Of a stretch of 64,000 bases of DNA, positions 2,251 through 25,646 are shown piece by piece (the stretch's first letter is position 1; each line of letters begins with the position of its first letter). Origin of the DNA: Parvicella tangerina (GTDB lineage: Bacteria; Bacteroidota; Bacteroidia; Flavobacteriales_D; Parvicellaceae); NCBI RefSeq assembly GCF_907165195.1, contig NZ_OU015584.1, forward strand, positions 2,738,978 to 2,802,977. Direction: 5' to 3'. The notes beneath the pieces were generated by a model. It ran no database searches, had not been told where the DNA came from, and saw nothing but the letters and a program-made list of their open reading frames with translations. A program made the translations under genes and the position numbers.

Positions 2251-2315
2251 AGTTAATTAAATTTAAATGATTAAAAATTGTAATTCGTGAATTAATACAG
2301 TTACCTAATTAACCA

Positions 2316-3149
2316 TTAAGCATTAACATTCATAGCATTCAGCATGTTACCGTAAACAGTATTCAATGCCGTTAAGTTTTTACTTAATTCAGCCATAGTT
2401 TCTTTGTACTTCTTAGTATCATCTAATGACGAGTGTAAGTTTGTCATCAATTCAGTGATACCACCGTACATTTGCTCTGTTGCATTCAAGTGCTCTGTTG
2501 CACCTTTTAATTGCATTTCATAAACATTGTTCAAAGCAGCCAAATTTCCTGACACTTTCGTCATTTGCTCTCCAAACGATGTTCCAGCATCTTCTGTGTT
2601 TGCCAATCCCATTAGCGACTCAGAAGCTTTAGCATAAGCATCAGATAATGCTCCTACTTTAGATGAAGCGGATTGAATGTTTCCAACAAACTCATCTGTA
2701 GCAGCCGTTGCTTTAGATAGATCACCCATCCCGGATGCCGTTGAAGATAAACTTCTTAATCCATCTCCAAGAGACTGAATTAATTCAGGTTCAATTTTAG
2801 CCTCAGCCAACATTGAATCCAGTTGTTCAACAACAGAAAGGTCATCTCCTTCTTCGATTTCTTCAAGGTCTTCAACCTCTGGTAACGCATCGTGTGTATC
2901 CTGTGCATGTCCCATTGCCAGTTCAGGATATACCAACGTCCAATCTACCTCCTCGTGTAACGGCTCAAATGCCGAGATAAAGAAGATCGCTGCCTCTGTT
3001 AACAGACCTACGATCAACATAATGTTTGCACCTGGTAAGTGCAAAATTTTAAATAATGCTCCAACGATTACAATTGCACCACCCCATCCGTATACGAACT
3101 TCATGATGTTTTTAAATCGCTTACTTGCGAAAAATCCATTTCCACTCAT
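2316..3149 (-). CDS. gldL: GldL, T9SS / gliding motor subunit
   Basis: Inner-membrane stator-like subunit. In known GldL proteins two transmembrane helices assemble as a pentamer around GldM helices and carry protons. Two N-terminal helices are visible (about residues 20-37 and 41-61). The conserved acidic residue lies in the second helix (Glu52, within GLLTEAAIFF), with Glu62 just after it, and FKILHLPGANIM joins the helices. The cytoplasmic remainder contains two similar stretches ending in NLAALNNVYEMQL and NLTALNTVYGNML. At 277 residues it is longer than the Flavobacterium protein and nearer in size to PorL. It lies between gldK and gldM. Confidence 0.95.
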   Translation of the reverse strand: MSGNGFFASKRFKNIMKFVYGWGGAIVIVGALFKILHLPGANIMLIVGLLTEAAIFFISAFEPLHEEVDWTLVYPELAMGHAQDTHDALPEVEDLEEIEEGDDLSVVEQLDSMLAEAKIEPELIQSLGDGLRSLSSTASGMGDLSKATAATDEFVGNIQSASSKVGALSDAYAKASESLMGLANTEDAGTSFGEQMTKVSGNLAALNNVYEMQLKGATEHLNATEQMYGGITELMTNLHSSLDDTKKYKETMAELSKNLTALNTVYGNMLNAMNVNA

Positions 3150-3229
3150 TTTTCCTTGCTTTTTAAGTTAGACAATTATTATTTGATTTTACTGATTTGC
3201 TTCATTGATATCAAAGAAGGGGTGAACTA

Positions 3230-4720
3230 TTAAAGTCCTCCCTCATCTTTATTCGGTCCACCTCTTCCTAAGTAAGACATAACACTTCTATAGCCTACGT
3301 AAGACTTAGCTGAATCTTGATATTCATAAGTTCTAGTACCCGTTTGCAGGTAGTATCCAATATCTTTCCAAGAACCTCCTCTAATTACTTTACGTTTCAT
3401 GGAAGGCGGATCATGATCTAATGCATTATACGTATACTGAGGGTTAAGGTCATGAGAAAACTCATAAACTGATTCATCATAAGCAGTACTACACCACTCA
3501 GCCACGTTACCAGCCATACAATAAAGACCGTAATCATTAGGGTGATAAGATGTAACCTCCACCGTGTGGAAACCTCCGTCCTCCATGTATCTACCTCTCA
3601 TAGGTTTGAAGTTCCCCAAGAAACAACCTCTCGAGTTTCTAATGTAAGGACCTCCCCACGGATACGGACTTAAGTCAAGTCCACCTCTTGCGGCATATTC
3701 CCACTCAGCTTCTGTAGGTAGTCTAAAGTCCTGAACATAAGTATCCCATTGGGCTGCTCTCCAAGTATTTAAGAGCTGCGTTCTCCAAACATTAAAGGCA
3801 TTTGCCTGCTGCCAGGTAACCCCAACGACTGGATAGTTATCATAAGCCACATGCCAGAAGTACATATTCGTCATTGGCTCATTAAAACTGTAGGTAAAAT
3901 CATGAATCCAGCACAACGTATCAGGATACACATTAATTATTTCTTTGATAATGAAACGAGACCTGTCCTCATGTCCTCTGATAGCATTATTCTGACCTTT
4001 GGAGTTTCTATAACCTAAATCAAGGTCTCTACCTCGTTGAACCGTTGGATCCTGAGGAAACGGCAAATAACCATTCTTCATTTCCGTACGATGATCTGGG
4101 TGTTCATCATTCTCATAAGCTTCATTAGATATTTTTTTAACAAGTGGTCTACCTTTAACAGCAGCCTCCTTCATATCTATCCAATAGTATTCGAACATCA
4201 ACTCTCTGGTGTCAATCTCCAATCTACCATAGAACCGGTCTGAGGGATTTAAGAACATTGAAGCTAAGAAAGGAAACTGCTCATTGTCTAGATGCTTTCT
4301 GTAATCTAGCTTCGTCCTCCAATCAAGAACCCACTCTTCCACGTCTTTTTCTTGTAACTCGTCATCATAAGTTGGTAGCAACCATCCATCTTCACCCATT
4401 TCCTCTCCGAGGATTCTACGTGCAATGGAATCTCTAACCCAGTATACAAACTGACGATATTCGTTGTTTGAAATCTCCGTTTGGTCCATGTAGAAAGCTT
4501 GAACCGAAACCGTTTTCATACGAGTATACTCACCCCAAGGGACATCCTGGTCACTTTGCCCCATTTGGAATCCTCCAGCTGGAATATAAAGCATTCCATA
4601 CAAATCTGGATGGTACCAGGCTCTTCTTCCAAGAACTCCAACGAGCTCTCCTCGAGAACCATCAGCACAACTTCCCAAGGCAAGTAAGGCGAATAAGAAT
4701 AAATACAACAACTTTTTCAT
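3230..4720 (-). CDS. gldK: GldK, T9SS / gliding ring lipoprotein
   Basis: Outer-membrane lipoprotein that forms the periplasmic T9SS ring with GldN. The N-terminus MKKLLYLFLFALLALGSC is a lipoprotein signal with the lipidated Cys at residue 18. The remainder is a formylglycine-generating-enzyme (SUMF1)-like fold, recognised from FQMGQSDQDVPWGEY near the start and RLPTEAEWEYAARGG, MAGNVAEWC and KVIRGGSWKD near the end. GldK proteins use this fold structurally, and catalysis is not implied. Length is 496 residues. It follows the PorP/SprF-like gene by 123 bases and precedes gldL by 80 bases. Confidence 0.95.
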   Translation of the reverse strand: MKKLLYLFLFALLALGSCADGSRGELVGVLGRRAWYHPDLYGMLYIPAGGFQMGQSDQDVPWGEYTRMKTVSVQAFYMDQTEISNNEYRQFVYWVRDSIARRILGEEMGEDGWLLPTYDDELQEKDVEEWVLDWRTKLDYRKHLDNEQFPFLASMFLNPSDRFYGRLEIDTRELMFEYYWIDMKEAAVKGRPLVKKISNEAYENDEHPDHRTEMKNGYLPFPQDPTVQRGRDLDLGYRNSKGQNNAIRGHEDRSRFIIKEIINVYPDTLCWIHDFTYSFNEPMTNMYFWHVAYDNYPVVGVTWQQANAFNVWRTQLLNTWRAAQWDTYVQDFRLPTEAEWEYAARGGLDLSPYPWGGPYIRNSRGCFLGNFKPMRGRYMEDGGFHTVEVTSYHPNDYGLYCMAGNVAEWCSTAYDESVYEFSHDLNPQYTYNALDHDPPSMKRKVIRGGSWKDIGYYLQTGTRTYEYQDSAKSYVGYRSVMSYLGRGGPNKDEGGL

Positions 4721-4843: not shown

Positions 4844-5770
4844 TTATAAGAATCTTGGATTCTTTGATTTCTGTATTACTGGTGGTTTCTCTAAGCTAAA
4901 GCAATAGTTCAACATGATATCATGCGATCCTTTACTATAACCGCTCAATTGCGAAGTGGTTACATCATAAGCATAACCAATTCTCAATAATCCGTCTCCG
5001 ATCTTAGTTTGGTAACCCAACATAGGAGCTATTGCATCCGAGAGTCTATAAGAAACTCCAGCCCAAACCATATCTCTAAACAAAACGTTTACATTTAGAT
5101 CAATTTGCGTTGATTTAGCATCAGTTTTAGCAAGAATAGACGGTCTCAACACCCAATCTGGATTAATCTGATACTTATACCCTGCCGTAACCCAATAGTG
5201 ATGAACATTCTGAAGATTTAGTTGATCCATATCAAACTGACCTAAATGTGTCGCACTAATCCCCATGTACAATTGGTTTGTTCTATAGAACACCCCGAAA
5301 TTAATATCTGGAACTAAATCACTACCATTGTTAGACGCTATACTAGCATCGTCCCCCCAAGGCGTACCATCTGGAGTAATCCAGTTTGCCTGAATACTCT
5401 TTTGAATGATCCCAGCAGAAACTCCAATACCAAGATCACCAGCACCCAAGCCTAAATGGTATGAATAGGCCAATCTAACGATGTTATTCTTTTCAAAACC
5501 TAACTGATCATTTACATAAGTCAATCCTAAACCTCCTCTAAGAAACTGCACAGGAGCATGCACATTCACCAGCCCAGTTCTAGGGTTTCCTGTAAACTGC
5601 GCCCATTGCTCTCTAAACAATGCGGTACCACAAATCGATTTAGTAATTCCAGCATAACCAGGATTAAACGAGAGATTATCGAACATGTAATGCGTGAATT
5701 GATAATCTTGTTGCGCTGTAGCGAACAGCCCTGAACATGCAACAGTTAGTGTAAGTAAAATTTTCTTCAT
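4844..5770 (-). CDS. PorP/SprF-family T9SS outer-membrane protein
   Basis: Predicted outer-membrane beta-barrel of the PorP/SprF family, which anchors the T9SS ring or helps secrete type B CTD proteins. A signal peptide (MKKILLTLTVACSGLFATAQ) is followed by the family opening DYQFTHYMFDNLSFNPGYAG, then by alternating beta-strand-like segments. It ends with a short tail KPPVIQKSKNPRFL. Length is 308 residues. Its position directly upstream of gldKLMN matches the porPKLMN order of Porphyromonas, so it is probably the dedicated PorP. Family members have many paralogues, so I give no symbol. Confidence 0.9.
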   Translation of the reverse strand: MKKILLTLTVACSGLFATAQQDYQFTHYMFDNLSFNPGYAGITKSICGTALFREQWAQFTGNPRTGLVNVHAPVQFLRGGLGLTYVNDQLGFEKNNIVRLAYSYHLGLGAGDLGIGVSAGIIQKSIQANWITPDGTPWGDDASIASNNGSDLVPDINFGVFYRTNQLYMGISATHLGQFDMDQLNLQNVHHYWVTAGYKYQINPDWVLRPSILAKTDAKSTQIDLNVNVLFRDMVWAGVSYRLSDAIAPMLGYQTKIGDGLLRIGYAYDVTTSQLSGYSKGSHDIMLNYCFSLEKPPVIQKSKNPRFL

Positions 5771-12857: not shown

Positions 12858-13262
12858 TTATTCCTCAATAAAGTGATAAGATGTATACCTAAACACCCTA
12901 CATCGAATCGTTCTGTCATCTCCAGGCCAGTCCTGTAGTTCTCTGTAAAAAGCTCCTTTCAGAACAATTGTCTTAGGCGGACTGGAACTATAGAAGCTAT
13001 CCCAATCTATCTCTACTTCCGAACTTGAAGGCGTCAGATTGAAACAATATTTTTCGATCAACTTCTGCGTACTAACAGATGTATCTCTATGCTCAAAGAA
13101 ATAGTCGTAGTTCTTTTCTTCACACCAATTCGGACAATCACAGCCCCACCCCATGAACTTAACAGAAAGTTCCCTTGTAGTATCTTCTAAATCATTCTTT
13201 TGCGACAAAAGAAATGCGGGAAATAGCAACAAAGAAACGAATATCAATGTCGGCTTACTCAT
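12858..13262 (-). CDS. Small secreted protein with a CDCPNWC motif, unknown function
   Basis: I do not recognise a family. The 134-residue product has a signal peptide (MSKPTLIFVSLLLFPAFLLS) and then a compact domain with GWGCDCPNWCEE (three Cys in six residues), a further Cys in KYCFNL and one in TIRCRVFRY. This suggests disulfides or a metal site. Its start overlaps the last 8 bases of the giant envelope gene, so translation is probably coupled and it may act with that protein in the periplasm. Confidence 0.65.
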   Translation of the reverse strand: MSKPTLIFVSLLLFPAFLLSQKNDLEDTTRELSVKFMGWGCDCPNWCEEKNYDYFFEHRDTSVSTQKLIEKYCFNLTPSSSEVEIDWDSFYSSSPPKTIVLKGAFYRELQDWPGDDRTIRCRVFRYTSYHFIEE

Positions 13263-16200
13263 TCGTAAGCACTTTGGCTTCCTCTAAAGAAATCTCCACA
13301 CCATCTTTAAACGCTTTGATCTCAGCAATGTTAACCCCTCTGGAAGTAAATTTCTTCTTGACCGCTTCAGCCTCAACATAAAGGTCTTTCTTGGCTGCAT
13401 AGTATGTCTCAGAACCGTCATCTTCTATTACCTTTTCTACACCTTCATCTTTTAAGTCTACGAATACGATTCCTCTTGAGGCAGGAACTTCTCCCTGATA
13501 ATTACCCAAGTAAACACGATAGGTAACACCTGGAGAAGCTGTAGGCCCAGATCGCTCAGTCTCTGGTGGATTTGCTCCAACACTTAGGTTACCTATCCCT
13601 TTAGAATTGTACAATTCTATCACTTTTTCTGCATCCTCGGGATTATCGAAATATCCCACATAATAACTTTTCCTTCCTTCACTTTGAGGAGCAACCTGAA
13701 TGGTATACTCTGGTACCATCAACATGGCGTTTGCAAGGTCAGTAGGTATCTCACCTTGATAAGTCCCCAGATCTACATAGTATACTCCTTCCTCTTGAGT
13801 TTCTACAATTTCAATTGGTGTTTCAACGGGTTGCGAAACATTATTATTTGGTGATAACTGTTTAAGCTGACCATCTTCTGCAGACGCAAAAACGTCTTCT
13901 CCCTGTTCTTCAATCAACTGTTGTGCTTTAGCAACTGTGATTCTCTCTCCATTATAGTAAACCGTAACGAAAGCATCTGTATTACCAAGTGCAACCACCT
14001 CATTTTTTCTAATGACCGCCTCATCCACCGACCTGTAAATACCTGTGGAGTATTTATAAAGGTTCCCAATGAACTTAGTCACCAATGGTGAGATGTTATA
14101 GACATCCGTAGCTTGTATAGGTTTAGAGAACGCTCCTAGTTGAACGGTAAAGAAAAGCCCCTCGATCTTATCCGCATCATTTGTCTCTGCAGCTCCATCT
14201 CCAAGGTTAACAACAACATCATTGTTACCGTTATTGATATTCTCATTCGTTTCGTTCTGGCCTGAGGTATTGTCTTCAGTCGAACTATTATTACTCGAAC
14301 TCTGATCCGTTGAATTATTGGATGTTTCAACAGCCTCCGTATTCTCATTGGTGTTTTGAATGTTTGTATTCGTTGCGAGCAGTTCGGTTCCTGCTGTTGT
14401 TTCAAGGTTTCTGGCTTCTGACAGCGAAATACGCTCTCCATTATAGATGGCTACCACGAAAGCATCCGAATACCCAAATCCACGGATTTCATTTTTAGCA
14501 TCATTAGCATTATTCCATTTCACGAAATAACCCACTCGGTAGCGAACGAGATCACCATCACCAACTTGCTCTCCAGAAATAGGAGCAAACCCACTAAACA
14601 CATCATTTGGTATTGGTTTAGAAAATGCACCTACCTGAACTTTATAAATTAATCCATCAGGATATTTAGGATTTAATGGAATAGGATTCTCATCAGAATA
14701 CGTTATCGACTGGTCCATGACAATCAAGTCATTCTCCACTTTATCAGGCACTTCAAAATTAGACGAAATCAGATCTCCGAAGGTAATGGTTGTTTTCTTT
14801 GCAATCGGTGTTTTATCGTAATCCGATAACATTATAGCCACTACATCATCTTGGTCTGAAGTTGGCAAACTAACAATTAGGTTCTCTTGCTCTTGTTCTA
14901 CGGATCTGATCAATTCTTCCAGTGATTCGATTTCACCACTCAATTCTTCAACTTTTTCTTCATTGACAATAATCGCATCTTCTAGCGTTGTAATTTGATC
15001 ATCAATCAGATTCTCTTCCTGTTTATCTTTTGCTTCTTTCTTTTTGTTTTCAAGCTCTTTAAGGTCTTGAGTTTGCTGTAATACAATATTCCTAAATCCT
15101 TCTCGCTCACCTTCTTTTTCAGCTTTCTGAATTTTCAGTAGATTCTTTTCATTTTCTGCGTCAAAGTAATCTTTGTACTCATCAGTTGTTTTCAATCGAT
15201 CAACATCATCCGAAGACAAGTTTGCCAATAAGCTTTCCTCCTCTTCTTGCTTCTGCTCTACTTCTGCCTGAGCGTTTGCACTTTTTTGATATTCGTTTGC
15301 TACTACCGCTAACGTGTTTGCTTGCTTTTCTTTACTTTCAGCCCGCTGGATCATTTCAATTTTATCCTCCCCTTTAGCTAACAAAGCACTATCTCGATGA
15401 GCAACGCTTTCATTCATCAAGGTGCTCGATTGATCTCTCAACGCCTCAGACTTTGACATCAGTTCTTCTGATGACATGGTAGACTCATTTTGAGCAATTG
15501 ACTTCTGCTGATCACCGAAAGCAGCGTCCACATAAAGGTCTGCTGCCTTATCGTAGTAGGTTACCGCTTCCAACTCTTTGCTATTTGCCTTTTTCAGCAA
15601 GCTATTCTTCTCCTCTTTATCTCTCTCACTATCCGCTTCTGCCCTTAAATCCTTTGCTTGTTGAATCAGTTGATCAGCTTTTGCTTCATACTCATCGGAT
15701 TGCTTCTTATCCGTAGATTCCTTAACAAAAACATCACTAAAACTTTCCTTAACTACATCAAGATTATTCTTTGAAGCATTAACCTTTGCTGTGGTAATGC
15801 TCTCAATATCATCATGCAATTTTGATTCTTTCTTAGCTATTTTACGGTCAAGCTTTTCTATCTTCTTCTCAATTTTACTAGCTTCTTTATCTGATGTTAC
15901 ATTCTGAGCCTCCACATTTAGCGCCATCTTATCCGTTTCGTAGTCGTTGATCTTTTCTACGATTTTTTCATTTTCAAGAAAGATCTCATTTGCCGCTTCA
16001 GAGTCGAAATCTGTTGATCTATTGGAGTACGAAATATCTTCTACCTCTGTACTTACCTCATAAGCATCGGGATCCTCGATCTCTGCATCATAAGTCTTCT
16101 CTAATACTTCTTGATCGGGGACGTTTGCAGTAGCCTGCTTTTCTTTCTGATTGATCATGCTAGATACCGTTGCATTCCCTTGTGTGATATCCTCAATCGT

Positions 16201-19200
16201 AATGACAGCTTGACCTGAATCATTGCTCGTTTCATTATTCAGATCTGTTGAGGTGTTTTCGGCTACCTCGTTAGTTTCATTCGTACCATTTTCTGTATTC
16301 TCCCCATTGTTTTCATTGCCTCCGTCTGAATTCGTTTCTCCATTCGTTTCAGTTGAATTCTCGGTGGTGTTCTCTGTTACTTCATTGGACTCGTTCGCAC
16401 CGTTTACTGGATTCTCCCCATTGTTTTCATTGCCTCCGTCTGAATTCGTTTCTCCATTCGTTTGAGTTGAATTCTCGGTAGTATTCTCTGTTACTTCATT
16501 GGACTCATTCGTGCCGTTTTCTGAATTCTCCCCGTTGTTTTCATTGCCTCCATCTGAATTCGTTTCTCCATTCGTTTCAGTTGAATTCTCGGTAGTATTC
16601 TCTGTTACTTCATTGGACTCGTTCGTGCCGTTTTCTGAATTCTCCCCGTTATTCTCATTGCCTCCGTCTGAATTCGTTTCTCCATTCGTTTGAGTTGAAT
16701 TCTCGGTGGTGTTCTCGGCTACTTCGTTGGACTCATTCGTGCCATTTTCTGTATTCTCCCCGTTGTTCTCATTGCCTCCGTCTGAATTCGTTTCACTCCC
16801 CTCATTACTAGCATTCGAGCCATTCTTTTCACTTAAATCTCCACTATTGTTTTCAGCTAAATCACTATCCTTAGTTGTAGCAATATTGTTCGCCACATAG
16901 CCATCATCTGTCATTTCTTCCAATAAAGCGATTGCTTCTCTCTGATTATCTATTGCTGCCGTATTCAAAGCATGCGCTTCTTCTAGCAGTGCGGCTTTCT
17001 CTTTTGGATCAGTAGTTTTTGAAGCCTCATCGACTTTACTGTCAGCAGCAGATCGTTGTTCTTCCGCTTTTTTGTTGTAAATCTCAGCTTTTAGATATTT
17101 CTCATCAGTTTCAAATTCTCCGACATTGTCTTGTACTTCTGTAATAAGCTCAACCAACTCTGTATCGTTTTGCTGAAGCTCAAGCCCATCCACTTCGTAC
17201 GTAGCAACTCCTAAATCTGTCTTTAGATCAAGAATTTCATTAGTTTTTTCATCGATCTCTCTCTGAATCTTTTCCTTCTTCTTCTCTTTCTTCTCTTCTT
17301 TATAATCTTCTTCTAGCTGTTCAAGCTCCTGTTCTTTAACACTTAACTCTTCTCGTTCATTCTCTTTCTCTTCCAGAAGTTCTGCTGCACTATCAGAAAA
17401 ATAAGCTTCAGTTTCAGACAAATCTCCAGAGTAATCCTCTGGTTCATAAACTCTCTTTTCTGTGTCATTAATTAATTCTTGATACTCGTCCGAAATGTTA
17501 TTCTCAGCTAATGGTTGAGCATTTGACAAGGACTCATTATTCTCCTGGATACGATTCTCTACCTCCGCCAATTCCTCTTCAAATTGCGTTCTCAGTTCCT
17601 TGAATAGATCTCTTTCTTCAGGATCGCTTGTTTCCAAAAGGCCTTTATTGGCTTCAACAACTTTTACATCGAACTCTTTCGCCCAGGACTTTAGCACTTC
17701 ATTTTCTTGTTCAATTTTTTCTTCAAGAGAAAGGTTGGGATCATTTTTAATCTCATTTAATCGGTTCTCATCAACTATCTCACTTGCTTCTTTTTCTAGT
17801 GTTGATGCCGTGACTGAAGACTCATTCTCGGTTGAGGAATTCTCATTGCTTTCAGTAGACGTGTTGTTTTCAGTGACCTCATTAGAGGTATTACTATTTT
17901 CTTCATTATTGCCAGCGGAATTCTCCGAATTAGCATCTGTAGCTGTGGTGTCATTCTCTGTGTTATTTGAAGAATTTTCAGTGCTGGCGATATTCTCAGC
18001 TACTTCGTTGTTTTCATTGGTCTCATTATTCTGTTCCGAACCATCATTTGTCGTTTGATTACCTCCATTTTCTTCGCTCGAACTATTCTCATCGACTGTA
18101 TTATTATTTTCAGCTACATTGTTTTCTGTTGTACTGCTATAATTACCTAATGTATTTTCGTTGTTTTCAATACCAGAAGCTACAGCATTGTTGCTCATAA
18201 ACTCTTCAAGTTCTGCAACCTCAGTGTCTGTCAACTTACTTGAATTGCTAGCTAAGTCACTATCTAAATCAACCAATAGCTGGGCTTGATGATCAAGGGC
18301 TGCTGCTTCTTCATCCAATCGTTCTGCTTTTGCGAAAGACTCTTCAGCCCATTTCTTATTCATCGCCAATTGCTCTTCCAGTTCATCGATTTGCACTTGA
18401 ATTGAAGGCTTATCTTTGTCCTTAGCTTTCTCCAGATCATTCTTGAGCATATTGAGACGGTTATTAAGCTTTTCTTCCTCAGCTCTAAAGCCTTGAGCTT
18501 CCTCTAGTGCATTATTCGCTTCTTCCTTCTTCGCTTTTGCCTGCGCAAACAACTCATCACCTGCACCATTGTCTGAATCATCTGTTATGATCTCTTCGAT
18601 CCTTTCCTTGAGCTCGGTTAACTGTGCAATTGCCTTTTCATGGTCTTCTTCCGCCAAAGTAGACTGAATACTTTCATAAGTTTTCTTGCTTTCATCCGCC
18701 TCGTTCTGTGCCCTTTGATAATCAGACTTTAAATTATTTGCCAAATTAAATGCTGCGGTGGCCTGTGTGTACTCATCCTTTGCTTTGCTATTTAATTCCT
18801 TAGCAAGATCCGCTTGCTGTTGTCTTTCAAGTGGGTTATCAATATCTTCTAATGAATTAAGTATTTCTTCAGCAGCTGCCGCATTTTCAGCAGCTTCTTT
18901 ACTTTTTTCATTGGCTACCGCAAATGCTGCTTCCATTTTTTCTTTCAATCGATCCGCCTCCTCCTGAGCGTCATCGTAGAAAGTTTTAGCCATGTCTTCG
19001 ATATCTCCCAAGGTAAAATTGTCATCCATAGCAAGTACCGAGTCCTTCTCTTCCTGCGTAATAACATCTTCAAACTGATCAGCATTTACTTCAGGGTCAG
19101 CCATCGATTGCATCGCATCAGCCAATAAAGACTCTCTCTCCTCAGGACTAAACTCTTCATCAAACAAGTTCTGAATAATTAACTGCTCCTCACCAGATTC

Positions 19201-20418
19201 CTTCGTCAGAATAATTTTTTGTTTCAACGGCTTGAATTCCTTTTGAGGAGGAACAACAACCACACTTTCATGTATTTTTTCACTGTTATCAGTTTCTACA
19301 ATAAATGTGTAATTACCACTCTTTGGCAATAGAATTGCGTACTTTCCGTCTTGCTTGGGATTATAGATTCCAATAATCTGATCGTTTCTATCATCCTTAA
19401 TTTTAATAGTAGCATTGTCGTCTGCCTGAATCTTATTTTCGAACTTACCAGCAAGTAGTACATTGACAAGTGGGAAAGTTTCTACTCTCACTTTATATAC
19501 ATCAATAAACCCATACTTAGCTGCTCTACCAGAAGCGAAATAAGCATTCTCTTCCAGAGAATCCACTACATACATGATGTCGTCATCTGGCGTATTTATT
19601 TTATAATCCAGATTGACTGGTGGGCCAAAAGTATTCGTTGTTAAATCATAAGAGCATTTAAAGATATCGTATCCCCCCATACTGTTATGGCCTTTTGAAC
19701 AAAAGTAAAATGTAGTCTTCGAAGCGTGCAAAAAGCCATAAGCATCATCATAGGGTGTGTTAATATGATCTGGCAGACGCTGTTCTTCTCCCCATTCACC
19801 GTTTGGCAATCGCTTGATAGCATAAAGATCTAATCCATTCTCACCTTTCTTACCGTAACTAGCGTAGAAAATTACATCATTCCCTGTTCCTATCGGAGGA
19901 ATGTACGTCATGCTTCTGAAATCTTGCTTAGCATCGTATTTAGACTGAAACTCCTCAGAGATAATGATCCTACCTCCTATCTGAGATAAGTCATAAGAGT
20001 AAGGAAATTTAGCTATAGACGTTCGGGTTTTCTCTTCAACTACAAGCTCAGTCAGGTTATTTAGCAGTTTCTTTCCACTTGAGCACATTCTAATATGCAG
20101 GTCCACCTGATACTTTTCTTTATCATCTTGAGATCCTGAGCTTTTGAATTTTTCGTAGTAGTTTTTAGCTTCACTGAATCGATAGAGCATGTGATATGCT
20201 TTACCCAGAAAAAAGTTTGCTCTCGGATCATTTCCTTTTGTTGCACCAAGATTTAGGTAAGGAAGGGCTTCTGTTTTATCTTCAGTAACATGAAGCAAAC
20301 AGGTTCCATATCTAAAATTCACATCCGGATCCAACCTGTAGCTAGGAAGCAACTGTAAATAATGGGTATACGCCTCGTTATACTTTTCGTCTTCAAAAAG
20401 ATCATTTGCAAACTCCAA
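13255..20418 (-). CDS. Giant TPR / PD40-propeller / coiled-coil / SPOR-like envelope protein
   Basis: Product of 2387 residues from the first standard start (TTG at 20418), or about 2415 if a signal peptide encoded upstream is included. Order: TPR-like repeats (1-110); PD40-type propeller blades (about 135-330, e.g. SMGGYDIFKCSYD); a carboxypeptidase-regulatory-like beta domain (about 335-410); long Glu/Lys/Ala-rich coiled coils; an Asn/Ser/Glu-rich block (about 735-870); more coiled coil; a 38-residue tandem repeat (about 1208-1390); further coiled coil; and four SPOR-like C-terminal modules beginning near 1924 (YKVQVGAFSKPI), 2088 (FTVQLGAFSKPI), 2211 (YYVDLGTYQGEIP) and 2297 (YRVYLGNYQGEVP). 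The front half resembles PorE-type T9SS anchor proteins, with SPOR-like modules in place of the usual OmpA peptidoglycan-binding domain. It follows plsY closely. A role linking envelope parts to peptidoglycan is inferred. Confidence 0.85.
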   Translation of the reverse strand: MEFANDLFEDEKYNEAYTHYLQLLPSYRLDPDVNFRYGTCLLHVTEDKTEALPYLNLGATKGNDPRANFFLGKAYHMLYRFSEAKNYYEKFKSSGSQDDKEKYQVDLHIRMCSSGKKLLNNLTELVVEEKTRTSIAKFPYSYDLSQIGGRIIISEEFQSKYDAKQDFRSMTYIPPIGTGNDVIFYASYGKKGENGLDLYAIKRLPNGEWGEEQRLPDHINTPYDDAYGFLHASKTTFYFCSKGHNSMGGYDIFKCSYDLTTNTFGPPVNLDYKINTPDDDIMYVVDSLEENAYFASGRAAKYGFIDVYKVRVETFPLVNVLLAGKFENKIQADDNATIKIKDDRNDQIIGIYNPKQDGKYAILLPKSGNYTFIVETDNSEKIHESVVVVPPQKEFKPLKQKIILTKESGEEQLIIQNLFDEEFSPEERESLLADAMQSMADPEVNADQFEDVITQEEKDSVLAMDDNFTLGDIEDMAKTFYDDAQEEADRLKEKMEAAFAVANEKSKEAAENAAAAEEILNSLEDIDNPLERQQQADLAKELNSKAKDEYTQATAAFNLANNLKSDYQRAQNEADESKKTYESIQSTLAEEDHEKAIAQLTELKERIEEIITDDSDNGAGDELFAQAKAKKEEANNALEEAQGFRAEEEKLNNRLNMLKNDLEKAKDKDKPSIQVQIDELEEQLAMNKKWAEESFAKAERLDEEAAALDHQAQLLVDLDSDLASNSSKLTDTEVAELEEFMSNNAVASGIENNENTLGNYSSTTENNVAENNNTVDENSSSEENGGNQTTNDGSEQNNETNENNEVAENIASTENSSNNTENDTTATDANSENSAGNNEENSNTSNEVTENNTSTESNENSSTENESSVTASTLEKEASEIVDENRLNEIKNDPNLSLEEKIEQENEVLKSWAKEFDVKVVEANKGLLETSDPEERDLFKELRTQFEEELAEVENRIQENNESLSNAQPLAENNISDEYQELINDTEKRVYEPEDYSGDLSETEAYFSDSAAELLEEKENEREELSVKEQELEQLEEDYKEEKKEKKKEKIQREIDEKTNEILDLKTDLGVATYEVDGLELQQNDTELVELITEVQDNVGEFETDEKYLKAEIYNKKAEEQRSAADSKVDEASKTTDPKEKAALLEEAHALNTAAIDNQREAIALLEEMTDDGYVANNIATTKDSDLAENNSGDLSEKNGSNASNEGSETNSDGGNENNGENTENGTNESNEVAENTTENSTQTNGETNSDGGNENNGENSENGTNESNEVTENTTENSTETNGETNSDGGNENNGENSENGTNESNEVTENTTENSTQTNGETNSDGGNENNGENPVNGANESNEVTENTTENSTETNGETNSDGGNENNGENTENGTNETNEVAENTSTDLNNETSNDSGQAVITIEDITQGNATVSSMINQKEKQATANVPDQEVLEKTYDAEIEDPDAYEVSTEVEDISYSNRSTDFDSEAANEIFLENEKIVEKINDYETDKMALNVEAQNVTSDKEASKIEKKIEKLDRKIAKKESKLHDDIESITTAKVNASKNNLDVVKESFSDVFVKESTDKKQSDEYEAKADQLIQQAKDLRAEADSERDKEEKNSLLKKANSKELEAVTYYDKAADLYVDAAFGDQQKSIAQNESTMSSEELMSKSEALRDQSSTLMNESVAHRDSALLAKGEDKIEMIQRAESKEKQANTLAVVANEYQKSANAQAEVEQKQEEEESLLANLSSDDVDRLKTTDEYKDYFDAENEKNLLKIQKAEKEGEREGFRNIVLQQTQDLKELENKKKEAKDKQEENLIDDQITTLEDAIIVNEEKVEELSGEIESLEELIRSVEQEQENLIVSLPTSDQDDVVAIMLSDYDKTPIAKKTTITFGDLISSNFEVPDKVENDLIVMDQSITYSDENPIPLNPKYPDGLIYKVQVGAFSKPIPNDVFSGFAPISGEQVGDGDLVRYRVGYFVKWNNANDAKNEIRGFGYSDAFVVAIYNGERISLSEARNLETTAGTELLATNTNIQNTNENTEAVETSNNSTDQSSSNNSSTEDNTSGQNETNENINNGNNDVVVNLGDGAAETNDADKIEGLFFTVQLGAFSKPIQATDVYNISPLVTKFIGNLYKYSTGIYRSVDEAVIRKNEVVALGNTDAFVTVYYNGERITVAKAQQLIEEQGEDVFASAEDGQLKQLSPNNNVSQPVETPIEIVETQEEGVYYVDLGTYQGEIPTDLANAMLMVPEYTIQVAPQSEGRKSYYVGYFDNPEDAEKVIELYNSKGIGNLSVGANPPETERSGPTASPGVTYRVYLGNYQGEVPASRGIVFVDLKDEGVEKVIEDDGSETYYAAKKDLYVEAEAVKKKFTSRGVNIAEIKAFKDGVEISLEEAKVLTNE
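16252..16795. repeat. In-gene tandem repeat, 114-bp period, five copies
   Basis: The phrase TCCGTCTGAATTCG, or a one-base variant, recurs at 16321, 16435, 16549, 16663 and 16777, exactly 114 bases apart. In the giant protein on the minus strand each unit encodes 38 residues of the type ETNSDGGNENNGEN followed by NGTNESNEVTENTTENST. The DNA copies are nearly identical, pointing to recent expansion or homogenisation. The reading frame is preserved, so copy number can change without truncating the protein. Confidence 0.95.
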
Positions 20419-20520
20419 GTGCTCCTCTTCATCTTTAAACTGACCTAAGAAAACGTTAAGAGTAAGAACAAAAAGTAACGTTATGTAGTATTTTATACTC
20501 AGTTGAATTATCTTTTTACA
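20419..20520 (-). other. In-frame signal-peptide extension of the giant gene without an ATG/GTG/TTG start
   Basis: Upstream of the TTG at 20418 the frame stays open back to the TGA TGA that ends plsY. It reads KKIIQLSIKYYITLLFVL, then TLNVFLGQFKDEEEH, a textbook export signal. No ATG, GTG or TTG lies in this stretch. Possible rare starts are CTG at 20502, ATT at 20508 and ATA at 20511. The codon before AAA AAG is TGT, where ATG would be expected. Confidence 0.7.
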
Positions 20521-20553: not shown

Positions 20554-21201
20554 TCATCTTTTATTGCGAATGTTCAGAGGCATTTTGTTTTCCTTTTTCT
20601 TGAGTAATCTCTCAATATTTTTTCTATGTGTAAAAATGACTAAAAATGAAATCACAACAGAAAAATAGATTAATGTTGGACTTGTAGCCTTAAACACATA
20701 GACCGTAATAAACGGGAAAAAGAAAGCTGCTGTTATCGCACCCAGAGAAACATATTGACTGATAATATAGGTTAGCAGAAATAGAATAAAACTAACTCCT
20801 GCAGCTGGAAAGTTGATCGCTAAAACGATCCCCAGCAAGGTTGCCACACCTTTCCCTCCTTTAAACCTTTCATAGATGGGATAGACGTGCCCAAACACCG
20901 CAGCTAAACCAACTGCCAATTGCAAATTAATGTGCTGGTTTGAACCTAACTCATAACTGCTTAACATGCTGAGAAATGTAACAGAAGCCCATCCTTTTAG
21001 TATGTCAAAAAACAAAACAGGAAAACCTGCTTTCTTTCCAATCACGCGAAATGTATTTGTTGCTCCAGCATTCTTACTACCGTAATCACGAACATCAATT
21101 CCAAAAAACCACTTGCTTACCCAAATGGCTGAAGGTATTGAACCGATTAAATAGGCCAATATAATTGCTAGTATATTATTAAACTCAAAAACCTCTTTCA
21201 T
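20554..21201 (-). CDS. plsY: Acyl-phosphate glycerol-3-phosphate acyltransferase PlsY
   Basis: Inner-membrane enzyme that transfers an acyl group from acyl-phosphate to glycerol-3-phosphate, the first step of phospholipid synthesis. Length is 215 residues with several transmembrane helices. Family motifs are LIGSIPSAIWVSKW, the glycerol-phosphate loop DYGSKNAGATNTFRVIGKKA and the glycine-rich RFKGGKGVATLLGI. A basic tail (RLLKKKENKMPLNIRNKR) precedes two adjacent TGA stops. It starts 17 bases after the 1475-residue protein gene and ends about 50 bases before the giant gene's signal-peptide region. Confidence 0.95.
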   Translation of the reverse strand: MKEVFEFNNILAIILAYLIGSIPSAIWVSKWFFGIDVRDYGSKNAGATNTFRVIGKKAGFPVLFFDILKGWASVTFLSMLSSYELGSNQHINLQLAVGLAAVFGHVYPIYERFKGGKGVATLLGIVLAINFPAAGVSFILFLLTYIISQYVSLGAITAAFFFPFITVYVFKATSPTLIYFSVVISFLVIFTHRKNIERLLKKKENKMPLNIRNKR

Positions 21202-21218
21202 AACTCAAGTATTATAGG

Positions 21219-24200
21219 CTATTCGAAGTCTCTCATGAACGCAATTGCTTTGGTTTTTGTTCCAAGCATGAACTGAAAGTCTTCTTTACCTTTTGGGGCG
21301 TTAAACTTAGTTTTATCCTTTTTGGTTTCCAAAATTACATTATTATAATCTTCATTCGTGGAATATGTCTGAAATAATCCCCTTTTGTAGTTGAAGAAAT
21401 AATAATTATCATCGTCTAATTTCAATAAAATGCTGATCTCATCTCCTGTTGGACGTTTATAAATGGCTATTTGACCATCAAGTTGCTTAAATATCTGGTC
21501 TTTACCCACATTTGCCAACCCAATTTTACCTTTAGAAACATAGGCATTTCTGTCTTTATCCCAGCTTAGTTGAACATCTGCAAGGTAAAGTTGTGTCACT
21601 AATTCATCGGGTAATTTTCCTTTTATTTTACCATAGATATTTAAGTCAGATATGATTTTGTCAGCTTCCGTTAATCCCATGACTTCGCGAAGTGATTTTT
21701 CATACGTTGAATTATTAAAGTCTAATGGAGGCAATTCAGGAAAATCAGAAATCTGCTTTTCCATTTTACCGAGCGCACCATCATTGAAAGGAAAACTAAT
21801 TTTCATAGAAGCTTTCATGTCCAGCTGACTAGTATTCGGATCATATTCCATTACACCTACTGGAGATATTTCAAGAAGACCAAATTCACAACCAAAATCG
21901 AAGCGTCCATCTCCCACCATTTTACAATCTTCAGTCCCTAGAGAGACGTAATTCCCCGGGAGACTTCTTTCAATTAGTTTATCACGTGTAGAAATTCTAT
22001 ACTCCTTGGCTCCCTTATCATATTTTAGGAAACCACTAGCTGACATTACATCAATATGGTCTTTATCTTTCTTATTCGAAAGGAAAGTAGAATACAAACC
22101 AATTGAATCCGTATTCAGCACCAAGCCTGCACCTACTGGATTCCCTTTACTATCAAACATTTCTTGGGATACTGGAATAAATATGTCTTTTGGGTCAATA
22201 GCTGCTTCAAATGACATCCAGTTCCTTTCAATGCCCGCACATGTGTGGGCAGACAAACGAACCTCACCTTTGAAGGTTAGCTCTTTATAGGAAGCAAACA
22301 TTTCTATATCACCAACATAATCAAATTGAGGACTCAATTGGAAGTTCGCATCTTCAGTAACAGCTCCCTTTGCTGTAGTCTGCATAGCAGTGTCTGGTTT
22401 AATGTTAGAAAAGTAAAACTTCTGTTGGTTTTCCGATTCATCAACATAATTATAGAAACCAGATGCCTCGTAGTCCTTCTTACCAAAGATCTCCACATCA
22501 GCGTCAAATATATTATGGTATTTCGTCACATAGTTTGCTAAGATTTTTGCCTTTTTGAATGGCATCATTTTCGCTTTTTTCTTGATTGTCACCATACCGC
22601 TATCAGGAAAAACTCTTGCGTCAGCAGTTTCTATGTATTCCACTCTTTCACAGGTTATGATCTTCTTACGCACATCAAACTTAGCTTTTGGTGACTTGAA
22701 GCTCAGAGAATCCTGCTTAGGATGAACAGAGTAGAAGTTTGAACCAGCTAGATCTAGGTCTGTCTCAATATTCACGTTGCCTTTTTCTTTTGACTCCATT
22801 TCTAAGTCATCCTGATCCATTAACCAATTAAACTGGTCCATATAACAGATATACTGATTTTCGGGAAATTGAACGAAGCTTTCACCACTATTTGACTTAA
22901 ACTGACCTTTTCTGGTTTTGAAGCTAACATGCGCATTCACATTCTCAGTCTTGAACGCCATCTCTTCCAAGTTGACAGTTCTTAGGAAAAACTCAGCCGT
23001 GTCAGCATCCAAATGCTCGTATTTAAATTTGTATAGATTAGACAACAACTGTCCGTTTTCAATGTACATATACCCAGAGCCCGTCATTCCCTCAGGCCTT
23101 AGTGCTAATCTTCCGTCAAAAGATGATATGGTATCTCCATACATTTTCAATTCATTTCCACCGTGGGATCCTGCAAACAAGACTTTATTATCAGGGATAT
23201 AACTCACATAAACATTGCTTCCATTCACCAAAGGAACCTGAGGGTCTTCCTCACTAGGCTCGTTGTGATATACTTCGGCAATAGCATTTAATGAATCAGG
23301 GAAGAAGGTAATCGCTGTTGATTCTGCGTGTGAGCTAAGAAAGTCAATTTCTCCTGAACCTTGCAATCCCTTATTACTCAACCTAATTTCATTCTCGTAA
23401 TTAGCTTTCTCTCCGTAAATTCCTACGCCTCCTTTTTCTGCCTTTCTAACAAACCCTAGGGAGTAATCATCTTGGATTTTAAGTGTTTCCTTCATGTTTG
23501 GAAAAATTCCTGCGGAAATAAACTCTCCGTCAAAGGCTAATCCTGAATTTGAGAAATTATCTAATGAATCCAATTCAAAGGGCTCTACAACAAATTTAAA
23601 GTTGTCCCTGTTGTAAGCTCCATTTTGAATCGCATTATCATCGTAATAAACATAAGTTTTCTTATTGACATTGAGTATTGGGTAGCGATGGAAAGAAGTA
23701 TCCTTACCCGACTTATTTGCTGCATCATCAATTAGTATGTTTCCACTAATCCCTTCCAGTTTGGAACCTAATCTTATTTGGGGAGGGCCTGTTCGATCTC
23801 TGTTAACTGCCCTTAACCTCAAGGAATCACATTCGATCAAGTTTATTTTAAAATTGTCGTACTCAAAATAAAACTGAGAACCAAAGTATTCTGTTCTTCC
23901 TGCGTTGATGATCCCAGCGAAACGCATGTCTCGGTTCTTTTTAATAATTACCTCCTGATTTTCTGGATATACCCGCACAAATTGTCGTTGGCTTAAGGTA
24001 AATTTATTTACCCCGTTTACTTTAAGATCATTGGAAACAAGACTGAGTTCGGCATTTGTATTACTATTTGAAGTAATATCAATTACGTCAAAATCCATTC
24101 TTCCTACTCGCTGTTTGATGTAGTTAAATAGTTTTTCTTTCAAAATCACTGTACCCAATTCCTTATTGTACTCTAGAAAACCTTCTACCATCAGTTCATA

Positions 24201-25646
24201 AAGTTGAACCTCAGCGTAATCTTTTGACGTTTTAAGTCCAGCTGAAGCTTCCAGAAGAGTGAGATCATTACGTCCTAATTCATCAGACTTTGTCTTTAAT
24301 AAAACGAGTGGATTCAATCCATCGCCTGTAAACTTGTCATAGGTGCTTGGACTGAAAAAACCCGTAGAGGTGAACTTTGCTGTGGAATCAGTACTTCCAA
24401 ACAAAGGCCCAAATGTAATAATCGGATCTCCCATCTTCCAATAGAGCGCTTCACTGTACATATCTAACTTGTGATACGTATTAGTGTAAGGAGCAATCGT
24501 AATCCCTTTACCTCTTGTCAGCGTAATTTTTGCCTCATCATTTTTATTACTAAACTGAAAAAACACTCCTGGGTGGGTAATTGAGTCTTCCTCGATCAAG
24601 AACTTTACTTTTGCTCTTTCAGCAACCGCTCCCTTAGGGTTAATCACAAAAACCAGTGCCTCAGCTGTTGCGAAGGGTTTATCCTTGTAAGAGAATTCCA
24701 GTCTGGAGAGATCTTCCACCGTACCTGCACCTAATAAATCTGCTCCTTCCATCTGAAATCCTCCATTGAAGTCTACATTTGGAAAGATATCTTCAATAGA
24801 AAGCCTTTTTGAATAGGACACAAACTTAGGGTATGACACCTGATCAATCCCTCTATAAGAAAGCACTTTTTCTCTCAACTCTCCATAAATTGGCTCTTCA
24901 AAATAAGTGCTGTAAAATTTCGCTGAATCAACTGAATACCCAGCGCTCTTCATACTTATGTCATATTCTCCTATTTCTGCATAAAACTTATCTTCAGGCA
25001 ACTCTGCCCTTCTCCAGGTCAGTGTTCCTCCAGTGCCTTCCCATTTAGAAGAGTATGGAAAATACACTCCTTTTGTCTTAAATAGTACGCTACTATCATT
25101 CTTTGCGTAACACTTCAACTCGATCTCTTCAAAATGGACCTCTGGCTCTTTATCATAAGTAAATTTGTAGTTCTTATTGCTCGACTTCCAGGTCGTGCTA
25201 GATGATTGAAAGATTATGTTATCCGATAACAAAAGTGCACAGGTATTAATATACGATGTAAAACGTTTTCTATTTTTTTCGTTCAACGCTTTTTCAACGG
25301 TTTCATGCCACTGTTCAAAATCAGCTGCAGTCATCCCCCCTTCTTTAGCACTTTTAATTGAGATCAGATATTCCTTGAAGTCTGGATATATCTTTAGTTT
25401 TTTTAATGCAATTTGATTGGCTGCACTATAAATCAACGCTCTTTCTGCAGGTGTATAAACACCACCAAACCAAATAGGTTCAAATTCCTTCTGAAATTCT
25501 TTGGCATCTTGTTTATTTACTTGACCTAAATAATTGGTGATGTCTTTAAGAAACTTGGTAGAGTCGGTACTAAAAACTCCTTGAGCTCGAGTAACTGACG
25601 ATAACAAGAAAAGCAATAAAGAGGTGATCAATAGTTTTTTCCACAT
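21219..25646 (-). CDS. Very large secreted beta-rich protein (1475 aa), unknown function
   Basis: Signal peptide MWKKLLITSLLLFLLSSVTRAQ, then a helical segment (about 25-140) and more than 1300 residues of mostly beta-strand-like sequence without transmembrane helices. A stretch near residues 1010-1080 (SFKSPKAKFDVRKKIITCER, then VTIKKKAKMMPFKKAKILAN) has the rhythm of OstA/LptA-like beta-jellyroll repeats, and similar strand patterns recur (FYSTYFEEPIYGELREKV, KAKFDVRKK). I do not recognise a named family, though proteins of this kind occur in Bacteroidota. The gene lies 6 bases after prmA and 17 bases before plsY, so it is part of the same run. An extended periplasmic beta structure is possible but unproven. 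Confidence 0.8.
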   Translation of the reverse strand: MWKKLLITSLLLFLLSSVTRAQGVFSTDSTKFLKDITNYLGQVNKQDAKEFQKEFEPIWFGGVYTPAERALIYSAANQIALKKLKIYPDFKEYLISIKSAKEGGMTAADFEQWHETVEKALNEKNRKRFTSYINTCALLLSDNIIFQSSSTTWKSSNKNYKFTYDKEPEVHFEEIELKCYAKNDSSVLFKTKGVYFPYSSKWEGTGGTLTWRRAELPEDKFYAEIGEYDISMKSAGYSVDSAKFYSTYFEEPIYGELREKVLSYRGIDQVSYPKFVSYSKRLSIEDIFPNVDFNGGFQMEGADLLGAGTVEDLSRLEFSYKDKPFATAEALVFVINPKGAVAERAKVKFLIEEDSITHPGVFFQFSNKNDEAKITLTRGKGITIAPYTNTYHKLDMYSEALYWKMGDPIITFGPLFGSTDSTAKFTSTGFFSPSTYDKFTGDGLNPLVLLKTKSDELGRNDLTLLEASAGLKTSKDYAEVQLYELMVEGFLEYNKELGTVILKEKLFNYIKQRVGRMDFDVIDITSNSNTNAELSLVSNDLKVNGVNKFTLSQRQFVRVYPENQEVIIKKNRDMRFAGIINAGRTEYFGSQFYFEYDNFKINLIECDSLRLRAVNRDRTGPPQIRLGSKLEGISGNILIDDAANKSGKDTSFHRYPILNVNKKTYVYYDDNAIQNGAYNRDNFKFVVEPFELDSLDNFSNSGLAFDGEFISAGIFPNMKETLKIQDDYSLGFVRKAEKGGVGIYGEKANYENEIRLSNKGLQGSGEIDFLSSHAESTAITFFPDSLNAIAEVYHNEPSEEDPQVPLVNGSNVYVSYIPDNKVLFAGSHGGNELKMYGDTISSFDGRLALRPEGMTGSGYMYIENGQLLSNLYKFKYEHLDADTAEFFLRTVNLEEMAFKTENVNAHVSFKTRKGQFKSNSGESFVQFPENQYICYMDQFNWLMDQDDLEMESKEKGNVNIETDLDLAGSNFYSVHPKQDSLSFKSPKAKFDVRKKIITCERVEYIETADARVFPDSGMVTIKKKAKMMPFKKAKILANYVTKYHNIFDADVEIFGKKDYEASGFYNYVDESENQQKFYFSNIKPDTAMQTTAKGAVTEDANFQLSPQFDYVGDIEMFASYKELTFKGEVRLSAHTCAGIERNWMSFEAAIDPKDIFIPVSQEMFDSKGNPVGAGLVLNTDSIGLYSTFLSNKKDKDHIDVMSASGFLKYDKGAKEYRISTRDKLIERSLPGNYVSLGTEDCKMVGDGRFDFGCEFGLLEISPVGVMEYDPNTSQLDMKASMKISFPFNDGALGKMEKQISDFPELPPLDFNNSTYEKSLREVMGLTEADKIISDLNIYGKIKGKLPDELVTQLYLADVQLSWDKDRNAYVSKGKIGLANVGKDQIFKQLDGQIAIYKRPTGDEISILLKLDDDNYYFFNYKRGLFQTYSTNEDYNNVILETKKDKTKFNAPKGKEDFQFMLGTKTKAIAFMRDFE

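Follow-up and report, generated by a model that had tools for sequence, protein, structure and literature searches.

PorE (PG1058) serves as a scaffold in the periplasm and binds peptidoglycan through its C-terminal part (PMC5053529, PMC7192894), and the crystal structure of its OmpA domain shows recognition of the diaminopimelate (DAP) peptide stem (PMC7192894). SPOR domains bind glycan that lacks peptide stems and is enriched in the septal ring, with Q270/R309 in RlpA and Q251/R285 in FtsN as ligand residues (PMC6895207), and deletion of chu_0125 has been linked by its authors to outer-membrane integrity (PMC5891637). Here we describe a gene on the minus strand of a 64,000-nucleotide stretch of the Parvicella tangerina genome (contig NZ_OU015584.1; the window, below), whose giant product joins a PorE-like head of tetratricopeptide repeats (TPR), beta-propeller and carboxypeptidase-regulatory-like domain (CRD) to a C-terminus of SPOR modules. 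Little is known of how Bacteroidota match constriction of the outer membrane to the processing of septal wall, and the giant is a specific, conserved candidate for coupling the two. We read it as a tether in the periplasm for wall that amidases have trimmed, mainly at septa, and put the probability of this at about 55%. Its location, ligand binding and division function we infer; the predicted folds, the order of domains, the conserved residues, the separate clade, the synteny and the separate PorE described below are computational results.

At the C-terminus AlphaFold predicts four modules of RNP-type, beta-alpha-beta-beta-alpha-beta-like fold (mean predicted local distance difference test score, pLDDT, 76.7; predicted template modelling score, pTM, 0.32, the relative placement of the modules not being predicted), the fold of modules 1 and 2 being judged from the secondary structure of the model only. 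Module 3 superposes on the SPOR domain of RlpA solved with bound denuded glycan (6i09; Z 8.8, root-mean-square deviation (rmsd) 2.3 over 73 residues). Further matches are to CwlC (Z 8.0), DamX (5.5) and FtsN (5.0), and to DedD on module 4 (6ztg; 5.3); folds outside SPOR that share the topology score Z 5.7 or less. Foldseek on the whole C-terminal model returned mostly generic ferredoxin-like folds, and VIA resolved SPOR. Pfam SPOR matches the C-terminal piece alone with 30.5 bits against a cut-off of 21, and is found at E<=1 in every one of the 19 giants of alignment A2, which omits locus L044 by choice (its C-terminus is complete) and L002, L004, L045 and L047 for incomplete or split frames. 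Searched against PDB sequences, the family profile finds the CwlC SPOR domain (E 0.0063) and FtsN at an E of 0.6, which is not significant alone.

The ligand residues of RlpA and FtsN were mapped onto the modules by sequence alignment, and the counts of aligned giants that keep them are given in Table 1. In the 19-giant alignment modules 1 and 2 are conserved about as strongly as the head, unlike the linkers, and module 4 is filled in only 8 of 19 rows. Judged from these columns, modules 1 and 2 look ligand-competent and modules 3 and 4 structural, the latter pair having probably kept the fold and lost the ligand site. A first-pass annotation of the window had proposed four SPOR-like modules; as a fold they stand, and in two of them the ligand residues are mostly missing. 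The giant resembles the SPOR division proteins (FtsN, DedD, DamX, RlpA and the SPOR amidases of Bacteroidota) in this fold and in the Gln and Arg/Lys of modules 1 and 2; it differs in having four modules, two of them degenerate, a variant first helix and a TPR-propeller head, and Pfam found no enzymatic domain in it.

The SPOR subtype of the giant recurs on a cell-wall amidase, an enzyme of the kind that generates the ligand of SPOR. The Amidase_3 protein of the same genome (L079) ends in this subtype (hhalign probability 96.9, E 1.8e-10; 34% identity over 83 columns), and Pfam finds both Amidase_3 and SPOR in it. All three loci chosen from a different family (f17) with A2-profile matches in frames of 373–394 residues likewise encode Amidase_3 proteins. 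By the A2 profile the subtype also occurs in four proteins of 376–399 residues within the order (L086–L089) that do not look amidase-like, Amidase_3 being absent from the two scanned, whose N-terminus has no Pfam match over cut-off. About 15 kb beyond the window, a 718-residue protein (L077:3465-5621), adjoined by two TPR-PD40 genes, ends in two SPOR modules. Pfam sees no barrel in it; it is 36% identical lengthwise to L094, which matches DUF6089 over and OMP_b-brl under cut-off, which hints at a possible outer-membrane barrel with SPOR as its anchor.

For the head, an AlphaFold2 model built from 23 aligned heads (L054 being omitted because its frame is split in its assembly) has a mean pLDDT of 80.8 and a pTM of 0.70. 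Residues 178-342 match TolB residues 208-366 (2hqs_B; Z 11.0, rmsd 3.0, 130 residues), with strands sufficient for about four blades where the TolB propeller has six. In the aligned heads Pfam detects PD40 (21/23), TPR_2 (17/23) and CarboxypepD_reg (8/23) at E<=1; the window copy itself gives only sub-threshold TPR and EMP24_GP25L. The top Foldseek matches of the head were incoherent, and VIA resolved TPR and TolB. One TPR match in the PDB is 9n2d_F, from the Flavobacterium johnsoniae BAM structure, and is probably BamD; passages of PMC12611786 contain no mention of SPOR or TPR. The PorE-like TPR-propeller-CRD head that the first-pass annotation had described is borne out; that its PD40 propeller is short had not been remarked on. 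The long coiled-coil and Asn-rich spacer of that description holds as well, at some 1,500 residues by composition.

That annotation had gone on to suggest a PorE-type T9SS (type IX secretion system) anchor with its OmpA domain swapped for SPOR. SPOR does stand where OmpA would be: none of the 27 OmpA matches in the genome falls inside the gene, and a hidden OmpA domain was sought and not found. The identification with PorE is not supported. The genome has a separate PorE orthologue (G000:C1:664566-666500; 505.5 bits, model positions 10-647 of 648) with the order TPR-PD40-CRD-OmpA, OmpA lying at 666189-666404. The giant matches the PorE family model (NF052230) with 70.9 bits over positions 270-480 only. 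The 600-bit cut-off of that model is itself a weak discriminator, being missed by the true PorE of this genome too; a PorE-profile match at E<=1e-30 is present in all 30 genomes searched (this one included), and none exceeds the cut-off. In a tree of 38 propeller/CRD regions, from which four duplicate rows and three rows below 50 bits had been removed, the 23 giants form one group (100/99) and the four PorE another (100/99), the branches linking the giants to other paralogues being weak and the rows long. No conserved T9SS neighbour was recognised among 20 other loci, whose open reading frames (ORFs) without a match in the window were not annotated. The giant shares with PorE the order of TPR, propeller and CRD, and differs in carrying SPOR instead of OmpA, a spacer of about 1,500 residues and a shorter propeller, in its separate clade and in coexisting with a true PorE; on the last two grounds it was rejected as a PorE replacement. 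As a T9SS cargo it was rejected as well, there being no C-terminal secretion-signal family in the Pfam and NCBIfam scans. By eye, no lipobox Cys was seen in the 23 aligned heads or in the PorE of this genome.

Among NCBIfam models the head matches CHU_0125 best (E 7.1e-27), T9SS_PorE reaching 6.9e-20. Both lie far below cut-off, with best stretches confined to the propeller/CRD part: against CHU_0125 (NF053607) the giant scores 94.2 bits for a cut-off of 620, best over model positions 281-484, and it lacks the OmpA domain of that family. The nearest paralogue by profile score is a TPR-PD40-OmpA protein of 878 residues (L083:3007-5643, at about 455 kb on C1 of this genome), at 156 bits against 71–89 for the four PorE. 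Its end matches the SPOR profile of the giants (E 1.5e-14), with no Pfam SPOR at E<=0.01, and it is a possible intermediate architecture with both wall readers in one chain. In this one genome the PorE/CHU_0125-type head is a reusable scaffold for alternative wall readers (OmpA, OmpA with a SPOR-like end, SPOR alone), which makes it unsafe to name such proteins PorE from the head alone. The genome's TPR-PD40/OmpA repertoire is large, with 53 CHU_0125-profile and 27 OmpA matches (25 of the latter over cut-off).

Between head and C-terminus, acidic residues outnumber basic ones by 380 to 138 over positions 441-1920; the division of residues 450-1885 into helical blocks and linkers was judged from composition alone, and the helical blocks are moderately conserved in the alignment of 19 giants. 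Linker 2 contains a tandem repeat (16277-16794; 114-bp unit, 4.5 copies, 92% match) for which, on average, only 4 to 8 of the 19 aligned rows carry residues.

Table 1. Features of the giant and its neighbours in the window (residues counted from the presumed CTG start, 2415 in all)
Feature	Position	Strand	Evidence or remark
Putative signal peptide, residues 1-20	20443..20502	-	presumed CTG 20502-20500; mature end Q21
TPR domain, residues 22-150	20053..20439	-	AlphaFold2 helices 25-147; TPR structures at Z ~10 (the structure-comparison tool advises caution below Z ~13 for repeat proteins)
PD40/TolB-like beta-propeller, ~four blades, residues 154-343	19474..20043	-	TolB 2hqs_B match; PD40 in relatives
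Carboxypeptidase-regulatory-like beta-sandwich (CRD), residues 345-435	19198..19470	-	AlphaFold2 strands 348-432; CarboxypepD_reg in relatives
Helical, coiled-coil-like spacer 1, residues 450-750	18253..19155	-	composition only; moderate conservation
Asn/Ser/Thr/Glu-rich, presumed disordered linker 1, residues 751-900	17803..18252	-	composition; poorly conserved
Helical spacer 2, residues 901-1200	16903..17802	-	composition, conservation
Asn-rich linker 2, residues 1201-1450	16153..16902	-	composition; contains tandem repeat
Helical spacer 3, residues 1451-1885	14848..16152	-	composition, conservation
SPOR module 1, residues 1951-2030	14413..14652	-	Gln 19/19, Arg 19/19 rows; AlphaFold2
Asn-rich linker 3, residues 2035-2112	14167..14400	-	composition; pLDDT <50 over most of length
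SPOR module 2, residues 2116-2205	13888..14157	-	Gln 19/19, Lys/Arg 19/19 rows
SPOR module 3, residues 2240-2313	13564..13785	-	6i09 Z 8.8; Gln 1/18, Arg/Lys 3/18 filled rows
SPOR module 4, residues 2326-2412	13267..13527	-	6ztg Z 5.3; Gln 0/8, basic (Lys) 1/8 filled rows
plsY	20554..21201	-	immediately upstream of giant here and in 13/20 relatives
X1475, 1475 residues, signal-peptide-like start	21219..25646	-	usual neighbour of giant

Taken together with the published specificities, this build suggests how a septal tether might work. The giant would be a soluble protein directed to the periplasm by its signal peptide, and its TPR, TolB-like propeller and CRD would dock on a partner within the envelope, presumably one at the outer membrane; by synteny, the product of the neighbouring gene X1475 would be the first candidate for that partner. 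The roughly 1,500 acidic residues, helical and, where Asn-rich, presumably disordered, would act as a long compliant spacer, while modules 1 and 2 would bind the amidase-stripped glycan strands that are enriched at division septa. As the OmpA domain of PorE reads the peptide stem and SPOR its absence, exchanging one wall reader for the other would change where the tether holds and should turn a general wall anchor into an anchor for sites of division or remodelling. If this is true, modules 1 and 2 should bind sacculi treated with amidase and not intact ones, a preference opposite to that of PorE's OmpA domain. A tether from envelope to peptidoglycan had already been proposed in the first-pass annotation and is plausible, as was the remark that such a build may not have been described: neither a TPR-PD40 protein with SPOR nor SPOR in a T9SS part was found in the PMC literature searched by title and start of abstract, a search with subscription papers and most preprints outside it and with little power for PorE, a term that also matched 'pore'. 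The one paper found there that combines type IX secretion with SPOR-domain terms deals with type II secretion.

Several observations weigh against a septal tether. In the model the first helix of modules 1 and 2 is only about one turn long, which makes these two a variant SPOR; module 3, to which the structural match applies, itself lacks the ligand residues. The structural matches also include, between SPOR entries, an exported protein of Burkholderia (6ozd, Z 8.1). Pfam SPOR scores 10.1 bits in the full-length scan, below cut-off, and is absent at E<=0.01 from the three f17 amidases, where the modules are identified by the A2 profile. A C-terminal match at E<=1e-25 is missing from 29 of the 120 genomes sampled in the order, all at least 90% complete. 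Among the genes recognised beside the giant in the 20 loci none belongs to the divisome, within the limit of annotation given above.

Two other functions can be drawn from the head. The giant might be a general integrity tether from outer membrane to wall, acting like Pal or CHU_0125 along the whole cell and not at septa in particular, with SPOR merely another kind of wall anchor. CHU_0125 being the best NCBIfam match of the head and the deletion of chu_0125 being linked to outer-membrane integrity speak for this, as does the SPOR end of the 718-residue possible barrel protein; a genome already holding so many OmpA anchors speaks against it, and we consider it unlikely. It might instead be an accessory T9SS anchor, its head binding the PorK/N ring or SprA while SPOR fixes the machine to the wall. 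The PorE-like domain order would suit that role, and SprA is present in 118 of the 120 genomes, this one included; being near-universal, SprA is uninformative, and we rejected co-occurrence with T9SS as support. The window itself contains a PorP/SprF gene (4844-5770), some 7.5 kb away from the giant, and in L049 a PorP/SprF-like ORF (2737-3792; 24% identity to the window gene, E 1.5e-13) lies downstream of both the giant and the adjoining M48-like ORF, but T9SS-like neighbours were recognised in just this one of the 20 other loci. With a full-length, OmpA-bearing PorE in a clade of its own, an accessory T9SS role seems very doubtful.

The neighbourhood suggests a further possibility, that the giant belongs, together with X1475 and often an M48 protease, to an uncharacterised module for envelope biogenesis, which the wall anchor only positions. 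X1475 lies beside the giant in 17 of 20 loci (not in L044, L045 and L059), either adjoining it or separated from it by plsY, and is present in 113 of the 120 genomes. An M48-like ORF lies downstream of the giant in 9 of 20 loci, Pfam confirming the metallopeptidase in the one locus tested (L048:13733-14560); none was seen beside the window gene. The counts over the 20 loci, that for plsY in Table 1 included, and the presence of prmA beyond X1475 in all 15 loci with a long enough flank were taken by eye. Yet X1475 does not need the giant, and many genomes have it with no giant detected: among 392 genomes of the phylum it occurs in 14, two of the order and 12 from four other families of the class, and those 12 show no head match (E<=1e-20) in a giant-sized frame. 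Within family f9, moreover, the two genes are far apart or on different contigs in G032, G431, G441, G449, G460, G462 and G471. We consider such a module improbable. Of the seven genomes of the order without X1475, G468 and G503 show the C-terminal region of the giant and the frame in G031 runs to the contig end; G013, G034, G436 and G450 show no such region beyond a 733-residue frame in G034. Seven genomes are too few to conclude co-loss, which we rejected as an argument. Neither Pfam (E<=1) nor NCBIfam (E<=0.01) matches X1475 itself; Pfam on 21 members gives scattered weak matches, each in at most two, and against solved structures X1475 found antibody chains only, at E 0.27-1.9, taken as chance.

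Returning to the septal tether, a bolder version of it touches on TolB/CpoB-Pal, which is linked to outer-membrane constriction at division. The propeller is TolB-like, and TPR plus coiled coil is reminiscent of CpoB; the giant differs in having no OmpA part, and a functional link is speculation. That it might substitute in part for Tol-Pal is thinkable because TolB_N, the only Tol part searched for, was found in none of 60 genomes of the order (this one included), the control search being positive in Escherichia coli, Caulobacter and Bacteroides. The giants would then be a new class of envelope-to-septum tether, in which one periplasmic protein of 2–3.5 thousand residues couples a TPR/TolB-like head to denuded septal wall through an acidic spacer, does part of the job of Tol-Pal and CpoB and is held at low copy by conserved weak start codons. 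So full a claim we regard as unlikely.

The gene is real, since it is kept across the order. The frame of the first-pass annotation, 13255-20418 on the minus strand (2387 codons counted from a mechanically chosen TTG, with the stop at 13255), stands except for its beginning. It stays open upstream to 20550 and encodes there a hydrophobic, signal-peptide-like stretch ending ...ITLLFVLTLNVFLG|Q (...NVFLG|Q), with no ATG, GTG or TTG ahead of it in the open frame. For this reason the TTG is probably an internal codon and the CTG at 20502, 20 codons before the mature end, probably the start, giving 2415 residues; nearby ATT and ATA codons are alternatives. The same-genus relative L043 has a CTG at the same place, and in both only near-cognate codons (CTG/ATT/ATA) are available. 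The Q21 column is near-invariant across 23 relatives, and an ATG in the 45 codons before the mature end occurs in only 6 of 23 giants (in one of them at -45), against an ATG near the expected start in 60 of 61 genes, drawn from four neighbouring genes at the same loci. The two counts used differing search windows on related, non-independent rows, and the second omits genes whose frame runs off the locus or whose alignment starts after residue 45. By this comparison weak initiation seems to be a family trait of the giants.

The C-terminal match at E<=1e-25 was found in 91 of the 120 genomes of the order, in 76 of them with a largest matching frame of at least 1400 residues (1417–3551) and in 15 with a shorter one. 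Of these 15, G023, G028 and G034 show only frames of 694–733 residues, which look like a different protein class; the other short frames look like fragments, and G031, which was checked, lies at a contig end. Across the 392 phylum genomes only two giants were found, in P. tangerina and G032, both of the order, with shorter SPOR proteins elsewhere; as no more than four candidates were scored in each genome, giants outside the order may have been missed. Beside the giant, an ORF of 134 residues (12858-13262, minus strand) with a signal-peptide-like start and no Pfam or NCBIfam match overlaps the stop of the giant by 8 bases.

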